Assembly: GCA_009843915.1 (NCBI GenBank)
Contig: VYCM01000074.1
Location: forward strand, 1-43,173
Reading direction: 5' to 3'
From: Acidimicrobiaceae bacterium
GTDB lineage: Bacteria; Actinomycetota; Acidimicrobiia; Acidimicrobiales; Aldehydirespiratoraceae
DNA length: 43,173 nt
The notes beneath the pieces were generated by a model. The model was not told the origin of the DNA and made no database searches. It worked only from the letters and a program-made list of their open reading frames with translations. Every line of letters starts with the position of its first letter. Position 1 is the stretch's first letter. Positions 5,254 to 43,173 of this stretch are shown here, one piece after another. The position numbers and the translations under genes are program-made.

Positions 5254-6253
5254 TGCCTACGATGCTGGCCCGTTCCATGATCCGGATGTCGGGGTAGTAG
5301 TCGCTGGCCGCGTAGTGCTGCACAGAGCGGTTGTCCCAGAACACCACCGTGTCGGGCGCCCAGCGGACCCTGAACTGGTACTCGACCACCTTGGCCTGGT
5401 CGGCCAGGTGCCTGATCAACTCGACGCCCTCGCCGGTTTCCATCCCGTCTATGTGGGAGGTGAAGTAGCAGTTGACGAAGATCAGCTTGCGGCCCGTCTC
5501 GGGATGGGTGCATACCACCGGGTGGCGGGCCTCCGGGTAGCGGGCTCGGAACTCCTCTTGCTTGCCGTCGGGGACTTGGTGGGCGAAGGCGAGCATGAAG
5601 TCGTGGATCGCGAACAAGCCGTCGATGCGCTCCTTGGTGTCGCCGTCCAGCCCGTCGTAGGCCGCTCCCATGTCGCAGAACAACGTGTCGCCGCCGGTGG
5701 CCGGGACCTGTATGGCGTGCAGGATCGCGCCCATCGACGGAACCTCGCGCCAGGTGACGTCATGGTGCCAGCCGTTCTCGAATCCGCCGGTGTCGACGCC
5801 CTTCTCGAAGCGGACCAGCTCGGGGTGCTCGGCGTTGCCGGTGATGAACGGGTGGATCTCGAGATCCCCGAACCTGCGGGCGAAGGCAACGTGCTGGGCC
5901 GGAGTGATGGGCTGGTCGCGGAACACCAGGATCTTGTAGTCGAGCAGCGCCTGCCGGATCTCGGCGACCACCTCGTCGGGCAATTCGGTCCCCAGGTCGA
6001 CCCCGCTCACCTCGGCGCCCAGCGTTGCGCCCTGGGGAGCGACGCTGATATGGGCGAACGACGGGCAGGCCAGCCGGGATCTCTCCTCGGCGAGGTGCAG
6101 CCACGGGCCGAGGTCAAGACCGTACTGGTCTATGCGGACCCTTCCGGGCGCGATGCCGGCAGCGGGGTCCGAGGTTCCGGCCTGCTCAGGGCCGCCGTTG
6201 GAAGCCACATCGCCGTCGTCTTCCATGGTGATCGAGGTGGTGGCGGATGACAT
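5240..6253 (-). CDS. TauD/TfdA-family Fe(II)/2-oxoglutarate dioxygenase
   Basis: A 337-residue non-heme iron dioxygenase of the TauD/TfdA family, which couples decarboxylation of 2-oxoglutarate to hydroxylation of a substrate (taurine, phenoxyacetates, sulfonates and others). The iron ligands are visible as WHHD (His163-x-Asp165) and the distal His313 in VQHYA; the 2-oxoglutarate arginine is probably Arg324 or Arg328 in RIMERASI. The TauD core begins near residue 65, so about 60 N-terminal residues, starting with an acidic low-complexity stretch, are extra. The ATG at 6253 is supported by TATATT 6 nt upstream. The gene is divergent from the ABC ATPase with only 23 bp between start codons. Substrate unknown. 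Confidence 0.9.
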   Translation of the reverse strand: MSSATTSITMEDDGDVASNGGPEQAGTSDPAAGIAPGRVRIDQYGLDLGPWLHLAEERSRLACPSFAHISVAPQGATLGAEVSGVDLGTELPDEVVAEIRQALLDYKILVFRDQPITPAQHVAFARRFGDLEIHPFITGNAEHPELVRFEKGVDTGGFENGWHHDVTWREVPSMGAILHAIQVPATGGDTLFCDMGAAYDGLDGDTKERIDGLFAIHDFMLAFAHQVPDGKQEEFRARYPEARHPVVCTHPETGRKLIFVNCYFTSHIDGMETGEGVELIRHLADQAKVVEYQFRVRWAPDTVVFWDNRSVQHYAASDYYPDIRIMERASIVGTRPA

Positions 6254-30610: not shown

Positions 30611-31873
30611 TCAGGAGATCTCGAGTAGCAACAGCAGGCGGCCCGAGCCCTCGAACTCGACTTCGAACACACCGGGAATCGCCGCACTGAAGGCGAAGTG
30701 GGCGGGATTCCCTTCGGATACGGCTCGCAGGATGTCGTAGCCGTGGACATGGACCTCTTCGGCGGCGTCGGATGTCACCATCAGGGCTACTACCGAGCCG
30801 AGATCGACCTCGACCCTGCGGACCCCGCTCACCGGCACTCCGCCGACCGCGTCCACCGTGATCGTCTGGACGGCGTCCGCCAAGTCCGCGTCGTACCGGG
30901 TCGGTTCACCCGCCGATCCGTGATCGTGGTCGTGGTCGTGATCGTGGTGGTCGTGTGTGCCGTCAGGGCTGGCTTCGTGGCCGTCCGGCATGGTGGCTTC
31001 GTCCTCGGACACTTCCAGCGTGGCGAACGCCGCTATCACGACACCGCCCCTGGTGAGCGGGGCGTGGTCGTTGGTCCGCATGATCACCGAGATGTCATGA
31101 GTCCCGGCCGGCAGCGGCGGCATCTGGTACCACGTCTCGTAGACCCGGGCCACTTCCTCGCCGTTGATGTACAGGTACATGTAGCCCTCGCCATCGACGT
31201 GGTCGCCGGAGGCGTTCTCGGGGGCCAGGCGGAAGTAGGAGGGCACCGCGTGGAGGCTCCAGCCCCCGGCCGGGTCGTCCACCAGCTCAACGCTCACCGA
31301 CGGGTGCGGCTCCTGAGCCTCCCTCGTCGCGGGGCCGTCGTGGCCCGTGGCGTGGCCGTCCATCTCTCCGGTCACGATGACGGCGGTGGCGTCGATGATG
31401 TCGCCGTCCACGGCCATTGTCGAATGGTCGTTGGCCGACAGTTCGACCCGTACCTCGTGCTCACCGGGCGCGAGCGGGCCGATGTGGTGCCATTGGCCGT
31501 AGAGCCGCGACACCTTCTCTCCGTCGATGTAGAGGTGCATGTGGCCCTCCCCGTCGACGTGGGCGGTGGAGACGTTCTCGGGCACGATCTCGAAGGCGGT
31601 GGTGAGGACGCGGAGGTTCCACCCCTCCACCGGATCCTCGGAGACATCGATCTCGATGGTCGGCACCGGCAGGCCTTCGGCCACTTCGACGGACCTGCCA
31701 TGGTCGTGATGGCTGCCGTTCTCGCTTGCCATACCGGCCGTCTCGCTCGATGGGGCGTCGTCAGCGGGTGTGGCGGGCGTGTCTTCACCGCTACAGGCGA
31801 TGAGAGTGAGCACGGTGAGAGCCAGCACCGCTGTCCAGAGATGTCGACCGGCGGGCGTCGCGGGGTTCTTCAA
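30611..31873 (-). CDS. Histidine-rich lipoprotein with two repeated domains and a cupredoxin-like end
   Basis: A 420-residue predicted surface lipoprotein. The N-terminus has a hydrophobic signal ending in lipobox LIAC (Cys27). Two domains of about 97 residues (71-168 and 192-287) are clear repeats: the first has HVDGEGHMHLYIDGEK, the second HVDGEGYMYLYINGEE. A His/Asp tract (307-318, eight histidines) then links to a C-terminal cupredoxin-like domain (about 335-420) with EVHVHGYD and IPGVFEVEF. A smaller His cluster (SHHDH) lies near residue 55. This strongly suggests binding of zinc or copper outside the cell. The TTG start at 31873 has GAGG upstream and a TAGCGT box at 31917-31912. No close family name is claimed. 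Confidence 0.72.
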   Translation of the reverse strand: MKNPATPAGRHLWTAVLALTVLTLIACSGEDTPATPADDAPSSETAGMASENGSHHDHGRSVEVAEGLPVPTIEIDVSEDPVEGWNLRVLTTAFEIVPENVSTAHVDGEGHMHLYIDGEKVSRLYGQWHHIGPLAPGEHEVRVELSANDHSTMAVDGDIIDATAVIVTGEMDGHATGHDGPATREAQEPHPSVSVELVDDPAGGWSLHAVPSYFRLAPENASGDHVDGEGYMYLYINGEEVARVYETWYQMPPLPAGTHDISVIMRTNDHAPLTRGGVVIAAFATLEVSEDEATMPDGHEASPDGTHDHHDHDHDHDHGSAGEPTRYDADLADAVQTITVDAVGGVPVSGVRRVEVDLGSVVALMVTSDAAEEVHVHGYDILRAVSEGNPAHFAFSAAIPGVFEVEFEGSGRLLLLLEIS

Positions 31874-41914: not shown

Positions 41915-42517
41915 GTGATCGACGGGCTGCTCCGGCGGATCGCCGAGTTTCACCGGAGCCGCCCGAGCGTCCCGGAGTTCCCGATGGTCGCTCCGGTGCT
42001 CGACGCGCTCGACGACGCCCGCTGTCCCGCCACCATCGAGTCCCGCACCCTGCCGGTGGTCCAGCACCTCGACGCGGTCGAACCCAGCGCCGACGCCACC
42101 ATCAACGCCGTTCTGGACGAGCTTCTTCGTCTCGCGCCGGTCCTGCCGTGGCGCCAGACCGTCGGCTACCTCGACGTGTTGAGCCGGGACTACCTCGACA
42201 ACTACGGCTACGTGCAGCTGCTGGGCCCGAACGCGATCGTCGAGCACCCCGACGTGAGGGTCGGGATCGGTCTGTGGGGTCCGAACCTCCACTATCCCGC
42301 CCACCAGCACGAGGCCGAGGAGTTGTACCACGTGCTGGTCGGCGAGCCCTCGTTCCGCGATGGCGACGGTGAGCGTCGCGCCACCCGGCCGGGCGACGCC
42401 GTCCACTTCGTGCCCTGGCAGGTGCACAGCCAGGACTTCGGGGCCACGCCGACCGTACTGCTGTACTGCTGGACAGGGGCCGTCGAGCCCGACGCGGTGC
42501 TGGTGGACGTCGGTTGA
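41915..42517 (+). CDS. Cupin resembling DMSP lyase (DddQ/DddL-like)
   Basis: A 200-residue protein whose C-terminal half is a cupin with the residue pattern of dimethylsulfoniopropionate (DMSP) lyases. LHYPAHQHEAEELYHVLVGE gives Tyr127, His130, His132, Glu136 and Tyr138, and FVPWQVHSQ gives His171. These match by spacing the DddQ set as I recall it (Tyr120, His123, His125, Glu129, Tyr131, His163), where His125/Glu129/His163 hold the metal and Tyr131 is the proposed base. DMSP lyase would release dimethyl sulfide and acrylate. Cupins are versatile, so activity is inferred. The N-terminal 90 residues are helical, as in DddQ/DddL. GTG 41915 has GAGG 9 nt upstream. Confidence 0.7.
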   Translation: MIDGLLRRIAEFHRSRPSVPEFPMVAPVLDALDDARCPATIESRTLPVVQHLDAVEPSADATINAVLDELLRLAPVLPWRQTVGYLDVLSRDYLDNYGYVQLLGPNAIVEHPDVRVGIGLWGPNLHYPAHQHEAEELYHVLVGEPSFRDGDGERRATRPGDAVHFVPWQVHSQDFGATPTVLLYCWTGAVEPDAVLVDVG

Positions 42518-42525
42518 ATCCTGTT

Positions 42526-42543
42526 CCGGGTCCAGGACCCCGG
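42526..42543. terminator. Candidate bidirectional terminator between convergent genes
   Basis: In the 37-bp gap between the cupin and AhpD-like genes, ccgggtcc and ggaccccgg face each other around one central base (6 contiguous pairs, more with a bulge). There is no T-run, so the call is weak. Confidence 0.3.
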
Positions 42544-42554
42544 CCCCTGGTCGC

Positions 42555-43085
42555 TCAGCCGTGGATGTAGTGGGACGGGTCCTCGGTGGGGTCGGGGGTC
42601 TGGCTGATGGCGCAGTCGTTGGCGATGTCGAGGATGGCCATGGTCCGGCCCATGGCCACGCAGTAGCCGATCAGGGTCAGCAGTTCGAGTATCTGCTGGT
42701 CGGTGAAGTGCTCCTTCATGCGGGCCCAGTAGTCCTCGTCGCTCATCATCGCCTCGTGATCCCAGCAGAAGCGCTCGGCCGTCTCGGCCGCCAGCTTCTC
42801 GGCCTCACTGAACGCCCCGATTTCGGTGTACTCGGAGACGTGGTGGTAGAGGTCCTCGTCGAGTCCTTGCTGCATCGCCGATGCAGACCGGGTGTCAATT
42901 CAAATGTGGCACCGGTTGATCTGAGCCACCCTCATGCGAGCGATCTCACGGACCCGCACGTCGAGGGAGATCTTGGTGTACAGCGTCTTGGCAGCGGCTC
43001 CCATGGCCATGCCCACATCGGGCTGGAGGCTCCACATCCGGATGCGCTCCAGCCCTTCGCCGTCGGGGAAATCGATGCGTGCCAT
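42555..43085 (-). CDS. Carboxymuconolactone decarboxylase/AhpD-like protein with in-frame TGA at the CxxC position (candidate selenoprotein)
   Basis: Read through a TGA at 42902-42900, the gene gives 176 residues, the usual length for this family. Residues 1-61 end in REIARMRVAQINRCHI; the TGA is codon 62; then IDTRSASAMQQGLDEDLY follows with no frame change and continues to TGA 42555. AhpD-type proteins reduce peroxides or disulfides through CxxC. Here Glu47 and Cys59 keep the 12-residue spacing of Mycobacterium AhpD Glu118 and Cys130, and codon 62 aligns with the resolving Cys133; Arg66 replaces His137. So TGA stands where Cys is expected, consistent with selenocysteine. GAAGGA lies 7 nt before ATG 43085. 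A gene ends 17 bp upstream. Alternative: a nonsense mutation or sequencing error. Confidence 0.72.
42870..42902 (-). promoter_or_regulatory. Candidate bacterial SECIS element directing selenocysteine at the TGA
   Basis: On the minus strand, 20 nt after the TGA (42902-42900), a perfect hairpin forms: CTGCATC, loop GGC, GATGCAG (42886-42870). Bacterial SECIS elements are hairpins a short distance downstream of UGA, inside the coding region, with a small apical loop having G among its first two bases and lying roughly 16-37 nt from the UGA. All of these conditions are met. Confidence 0.6.
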
Positions 43086-43102
43086 GCCGGCGTCCTTCGG
43101 GG

Positions 43103-43173
43103 CTAGCCCTTCTCGGTTGTGGGATCGATGATCTTGCCGACCTCGGTGACCACCGTCGCCGGGAACCCGCTGC
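43103..43173 (-). CDS. 3' end of an unidentified gene (runs off the window)
   Basis: The minus strand is open from the window edge to TAG 43105-43103, giving the last 22 or so residues, ending SGFPATVVTEVGKIIDPTTEKG. I cannot identify a family from this fragment. It is 17 bp upstream of the AhpD-like gene on the same strand, so it is likely co-transcribed with it. Its identity would help show what the candidate selenoprotein works with. Confidence 0.45.
   Translation of the reverse strand, partial: SGFPATVVTEVGKIIDPTTEKG

Follow-up and report, generated by a model that had tools for sequence, protein, structure and literature searches.

A Predicted CxxU Selenoprotein of the CMD/AhpD Superfamily Encoded Across an In-Frame TGA in an Acidimicrobiaceae Bacterium

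Organization of the Locus

The window (i.e., the whole stretch of DNA that was analyzed, 43,173 nucleotides of contig VYCM01000074.1 from an Acidimicrobiaceae bacterium) carried close to its end, on the minus strand, one frame made up of 61 sense codons (43085–42903), a TGA (42902–42900), 114 further sense codons (from 42899) and a terminal TGA. A reading made earlier from the sequence alone had placed a single TGA, splitting one frame, at the second cysteine position of a CxxC motif; the frame itself and the alignment of homologues described below bore this out. The redox motif of the full-length protein was C59-H-I-U62. The features of the locus were as follows:

42555..43085, minus strand: complete gene for a predicted CxxU CMD/AhpD-like selenoprotein, 176 residues, with an ATG start and a TGA stop, assigned on the PF02627 score
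42900..42902, minus strand: in-frame TGA, predicted Sec62, aligned with TGA or Cys codons of the homologues
42909..42911, minus strand: Cys59, first residue of the CxxU redox pair, Cys in 90/90 and 80/80 homologues
42945..42947, minus strand: Glu47, Glu in 90/90 and 80/80 homologues
42888..42890, minus strand: Arg66, four residues past the Sec, Arg in 90/90 and 80/80 homologues and aligned with a His of PA0269
42870..42886, minus strand: predicted SECIS apical hairpin, CTGCATC-GGC-GATGCAG, assigned on covariation, absence from Cys forms and frozen synonymous codons
43093..43098, minus strand: GAAGGA, 7 nt ahead of the ATG and likely a ribosome-binding site, called on consensus resemblance only
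43103..43171, minus strand: 3' end of the upstream gene, which is cut by the contig end; its ending, SGFPATVVTEVGKIIDPTTEKG, resembles the end of a gene in the named relative L137

An ordinary ORF listing of the locus returned exactly two fragments, of 61 and 106 aa, the second beginning at the ATG at 42875, which is codon 71 of the full gene. Both fragments had been foreseen by the sequence-only reading as the product of standard annotation, and a plain ORF call of this kind splits the gene and conceals its active site.

The ending of the truncated upstream gene was nearly identical to that of the gene at 5705–5989 in L137, which matched the Pfam family SCO4226-like (PF14026) with 64.6 bits. 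This family is nickel-responsive, and in L137 its member terminates immediately before the selenoprotein gene. L138 and L139 had SCO4226-like relatives in the corresponding position, as did, judged by the tail, the window; among the 80 named loci, some of them short, phmmer matched such an upstream relative only in L137, L138, and L139. The convergent neighbor on the other side (41915–42517, plus strand) encoded a cupin that matched Pfam DMSP_lyase (PF16867) with 101.4 bits and is possibly a dimethylsulfoniopropionate lyase.

The window was also scanned for other coding stretches that traverse a TGA. The scan missed the known gene, a sign of poor sensitivity, and gave one candidate, at 30611 on the minus strand. 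This candidate was rejected, as the TGA is the stop of a 420-aa histidine-rich ORF with a new GTG start about 10 nt further on, i.e., an ordinary junction. The 172-aa ORF that follows the junction resembled a carbonic anhydrase by eye.

Homologues, Fold and Active Site

When 298 genomes of the same order were searched with the protein, at least 163 gave matches. The set analyzed comprised 90 matches (30 loci and 60 fetched stretches) from 71 genomes; left out of it were 11 listed matches of at least 75 bits, all 11 without an inner stop, and matches below 75 bits, some of which had TGA, TAG or TAA. A second set, referred to as the named set, comprised the 80 best of 171 relatives; it overlaps the first.

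With the TGA read through, the window protein matched Pfam CMD (PF02627) with 39.4 bits, compared with a gathering score of 23, over residues 22–103, a region that spans the TGA. It reached no cut-off in NCBIfam 20.0, its best match there being NF053654 (46.8 bits, cut-off 310), and its scores were 24.9 bits on TIGR01926 (cut-off 81.8) and 22 bits on TIGR00778 (cut-off 27.8). An AlphaFold2 model of the protein (pLDDT 87.5) had the all-helical AhpD-type fold expected of the superfamily. The best fold match in the PDB was PA0269 of Pseudomonas aeruginosa (chain 2ijc_I, E = 1.2e-5, TM 0.68 by query and 0.82 by target), and a profile search agreed in placing PA0269 first. The closest fold matches carried titles of AhpD, antioxidant-defence or unknown-function proteins. 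AhpD of Mycobacterium tuberculosis matched the model poorly (Foldseek E = 2.6, rank 41).

Glu47, Cys59, and Arg66 were invariant in both of the overlapping sets (90/90 and 80/80). In M. tuberculosis AhpD, a Glu, two Cys and a His make up the catalytic relay. The sequence-only reading had drawn a parallel with this enzyme from the Glu–Cys spacing, which is indeed 12 between Glu47 and Cys59; we take Glu47 to be the counterpart of the catalytic Glu of AhpD, and Glu118–Cys130 to be the equivalent pair in the M. tuberculosis numbering. The parallel stood for the Glu and for the redox pair, and failed for the His that follows the CxxC in AhpD, in place of which all homologues have Arg66, aligned with the His of PA0269. 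With Arg in place of this His, it is uncertain whether the protein carries out true AhpD peroxide chemistry.

The protein can with high confidence be predicted to be a selenoprotein of the CMD/AhpD superfamily and to have a redox function, with no specific substrate assigned, and an AhpD-like thiol/selenol oxidoreductase chemistry appears probable. A selenoprotein in which the Arg brings about a different reaction, for instance thiol-disulfide exchange or the removal of a leaving group by reduction, is a possible though unlikely alternative. It would accord with the presence of Arg66 in every row of the two overlapping sets, with scores short of the TIGR01926 and TIGR00778 cut-offs, and with the occurrence of the debrominase Bmp8 among the matches (E = 6.5e-5 by sequence and 2.8e-4 by fold). 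However, Glu47 and both redox residues are retained, and the closest folds, those of AhpD, antioxidant-defence and unknown-function proteins, scored above Bmp8, which argues against this alternative.

Codon 62 Among Homologues

Alignment of the homologues revealed either a TGA or a Cys codon at position 62 throughout both sets, the comparison for which the sequence-only reading had called. Of the 90 matches, 50 had TGA at codon 62 and 40 had TGC or TGT, and in the named set the counts were 53 TGA and 27 Cys out of 80. The TGA was conserved at this one codon across many genera and was replaced by Cys codons only. Among the best 80 of 171 named relatives, the closest was a 96% identical Acidimicrobiaceae bacterium, also with TGA, and most of the TGA forms came from records whose titles describe MAGs of Acidimicrobiia or of other Actinomycetota. 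Three named records (L146, L161, and L181) were titled Euryarchaeota or Bifidobacterium breve and were 67%, 48%, and 43% identical to the Acidimicrobiia-type selenoprotein; these titles are probably wrong.

If the TGA were a true stop, the locus would give rise to two short proteins, one of 61 aa and another of 106 aa that starts at the ATG at 42875; codon 71 is indeed an ATG. This reading is very improbable and was rejected, as the split cuts the CMD domain (22–103) and parts the two redox residues, the stop is interchanged only with Cys in the homologues, and the ATG at codon 71 lies in the 3' arm of the hairpin and has given way to other codons in several TGA forms, among them L042, L043, and L047.

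A Cys form that has been mutated or mis-sequenced, leaving a pseudogene or an artefact, has next to nothing to recommend it. The ATG does lie only 88 bases short of the point where the window, and with it the contig of an incomplete assembly, ends, and the locus (L020, 2116 bases) is cut there; but the TGA is shared with the congeners G281 and G262 and with the named genomes L137–L140, and the identical TGA was found in separate assemblies of relatives 91–96% identical. Its retention in 50 of the 90 homologues rules out both pseudogene and sequencing error. Stops scattered through the gene, named by the sequence-only reading as the mark of a pseudogene, were seen in none of the 90 homologues. 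A natural end was defined in this set as a stop no more than six residues from the end of the match, or beyond it, and the second stops counted as natural ends were those of 3/90 matches listed with two TGA and of 1/90 with TGA and TAA; the sole other stop counted was at column 163 of L046, close to its end. In the named set, 10 of 80 showed a further stop 99 codons past the site, which was read as the natural end. On either side of the TGA dN was well under dS (downstream, in comparison with G262, dN 0.064 and dS 0.254), indicating that purifying selection continues beyond the TGA.

On a tree of the homologues built with the Sec/Cys site masked, the Sec/Cys state changed at least seven times, and five of these changes were forced by supported branches. 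Repeated switches within a single order provide a good system for asking why lineages keep or drop selenocysteine. Three different TGA-form homologues (L039, L060, and L075), on separate branches of the tree, were found in genome G239, and a second TGA-form paralogue made up family f27 (L080, L082, L087, L088, L093, and L103).

SECIS Hairpin

The hairpin CTGCATC-GGC-GATGCAG has a perfect 7-bp stem, which begins 13 nt after the TGA, and a GGC loop at 42879–42877 with the G first, which begins 20 nt after the TGA. The stem and loop were thus as described in the sequence-only reading; the distance of 20 nt given there for the stem fits the start of the loop instead. Hairpins were called by a rule that combines a stem of at least 7 bp with loop-G and spacing conditions, the spacing limits being those of bacterial SECIS elements. 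A qualifying hairpin arose in 1.25% of 20,000 synonymous-codon shuffles of the window gene.

Under the loop rule, a stem of at least 7 bp was present in 39 of the 50 TGA forms compared with 2 of the 40 Cys forms (Fisher p = 5.5e-13, relatedness ignored); synonymous shuffling of the TGA forms, repeated 200 times, produced such a stem in a mean of 2.1% and a maximum of 8%. In an eight-pair model, the fraction of paired cells was 0.886 in 45 distinct TGA forms and 0.344 in the 40 Cys forms. The observed 0.886 was never reached in 1000 column shuffles of the TGA set (maximum 0.816), although their mean of 0.777 indicates that conserved columns account for much of the pairing; slid versions of the model went no higher than 0.537. 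At offsets 20/28 the pair was GC in 23, AT in 19, and TA in 3 of the 45 TGA forms, and that at offsets 16/32 was CG in 33, TA in 6, GC in 4, and TG in 1, indicating that changes on both sides are compensated. Non-standard pairs in the 45 forms numbered 18 at the outermost and 13 at the innermost position. By the rule, 11 of the 50 TGA forms had no stem of at least 7 bp, and five of these were f27 paralogues; all of the f27 paralogues except L093 (5/6) had a best stem of 3 to 5 bp, and this family perhaps carries a different SECIS shape.

The degenerate codons of the hairpin (67, 68, 69, 70, and 72) were identical in all 14 near relatives (5/5), compared with 1/83 for the other degenerate codons with an invariant residue (p = 1.5e-7), the lone frozen codon outside the hairpin being codon 73, which adjoins it. 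This indicates that both the RNA and the protein are under selection. In a search of 42300–43173, none of the SECIS-type families of Rfam matched, even at E up to 10. By the comparative evidence, the hairpin after the TGA is a SECIS element.

Selenocysteine Machinery

Of the machinery genes for which the sequence-only reading had recommended a search, selC, selA, and selD were found in the same assembly, and selB was absent from it, the assembly being incomplete. The tRNA-Sec had the anticodon tca and scored 66.9 bits with a covariance model, ARAGORN agreeing on its identity; selA scored 342.7 bits and ran off the end of contig C78; and selD (L009:1531, G000:C54) scored 362.6 bits with an in-frame TGA of its own in GAGUACKI. 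The SelD of the source genome is probably a selenoprotein itself; a strong hairpin followed its TGA, with a predicted CCC loop without G.

A family search for selB in the 87.8%-complete assembly gave only matches below the cut-off, and the SelB of a congener, used as query, matched at no more than 31% identity and to parts of the query only; the best of these matches, just after a frame of EF-G length, looks like EF-Tu. Of 13 genomes tested, 11 had selB, the three congeners among them; only the source genome and G170 lacked it. Because the selA contig is cut off, and because selB starts 9 nt after selA in the congener G281, the simplest reading would be that selB lies in the missing part of the assembly. 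One of these three congeners, G223, had selA and selB, no match to the selenoprotein gene, and no tRNA-Sec at E ≤ 1e-9.

Over the 71 genomes with analyzed homologues, machinery was called from selA at E ≤ 1e-60 or tRNA-Sec at E ≤ 1e-9. It was present in 37 of the 38 genomes with a TGA form compared with 15 of the 33 Cys-only genomes (Fisher p = 8.7e-7), and the lone TGA-form genome with neither was G170 (83% complete). When relatedness was controlled for, the link was not significant (sign test median p 0.5 over five independent pairs, all on branches with support), the pairs being too few for this test to decide. That the TGA encodes an ordinary amino acid, such as Trp, through a changed genetic code is scarcely credible: a tRNA with anticodon tca exists in the genome, but it is a tRNA-Sec by both ARAGORN and the covariance model, the homologues show TGC or TGT and not TGG at the site, and the recoding is contradicted by the TGA in which the same gene terminates.

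Interpretation

On these genomic grounds, the locus 43085..42555 is almost certainly a selenoprotein gene. The CxxU proposal of the sequence-only reading is supported by the conservation of TGA or Cys at a single codon, by a covarying hairpin with no counterpart in the Cys forms, and by the presence of tRNA-Sec, selA, and selD. SelB with Sec-tRNA(Sec) would bind the hairpin just past the UGA, and selenocysteine would be put in at residue 62, creating a CxxU active site within an AhpD-like helical fold. Sec62, polarized by Glu47, may act as the attacking selenolate, which Cys59 would then resolve in a peroxide- or disulfide-reducing cycle.

A wider proposition, which we regard as speculative and rather improbable, is that there exists within the Acidimicrobiia a branch of CMD selenoenzymes, as yet without a name, with an invariant Arg for the AhpD His, a CxxU chemistry other than AhpD peroxide reduction, repeated Sec/Cys switching (at least five supported changes) and at least three Sec paralogues in G239.

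Comparison With Known Systems

CxxU selenoproteins of the AhpD-like (COG2128) and CMD-domain kinds were reported from the Sargasso Sea in 2005, together with the loop guanosine as a feature of the bacterial SECIS (PMC1088965). AhpD-like proteins (COG2128) appear among 25 bacterial families (PMC1794560), 299 AhpD-like 1 and 70 AhpD-like 2 sequences have been counted (PMC2398784), and the AhpD-like and CMD-like selenoprotein families are tabulated in reviews (PMC9312934, PMC13188914). A partial search of the literature, mainly of titles and abstract openings, gave no description of the present CxxU group in Acidimicrobiia. A 2017 study of sponge symbionts, which included Acidimicrobiales bins, reports SelA and SelB together in the majority of symbiont bins and neither in most of the close references (PMC5649159). 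The window gene provides one concrete example of a Sec protein, probably from the order to which those bins belong.

The window protein shares with the AhpD-like selenoprotein (COG2128/TIGR01926) a CxxU at the AhpD core with Sec in the second position, many Cys homologues, and a stem-loop just past the UGA with a loop guanosine; it differs in its TIGR01926 score, well below the cut-off, the published examples being compared by description only. With the CMD-like selenoprotein it shares the CxxU motif and a PF02627 score above gathering, whereas that kind is defined only by this broad domain. NF053654 (GroundWater_YciW, YciW-related (seleno)protein) was matched at E ≤ 0.01 by 24/24 aligned members, yet the low score of the window protein places it outside the named family. 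PA0269 (2ijc and 2o4d; 7xw1 is titled AhpD) is the best fold and profile match and has its CxxC at the same position, but it has Cys for the Sec and His for the Arg, and is 20–24% identical to the window protein. Bmp8 (6ohi and 6ohj) shares the CMD-type fold, although it is a debrominase by title and a weaker match than PA0269; we take it to be a Cys enzyme, as the title of a C82A entry likewise suggests.

The new details, as read from the sequence, are scores below every NCBIfam cut-off and an invariant Arg66 at the predicted position of the AhpD catalytic His. CxxU selenoproteins of the AhpD/CMD type are an already described kind, to which the window gene adds, and with it a well-supported CxxU selenoprotein group.
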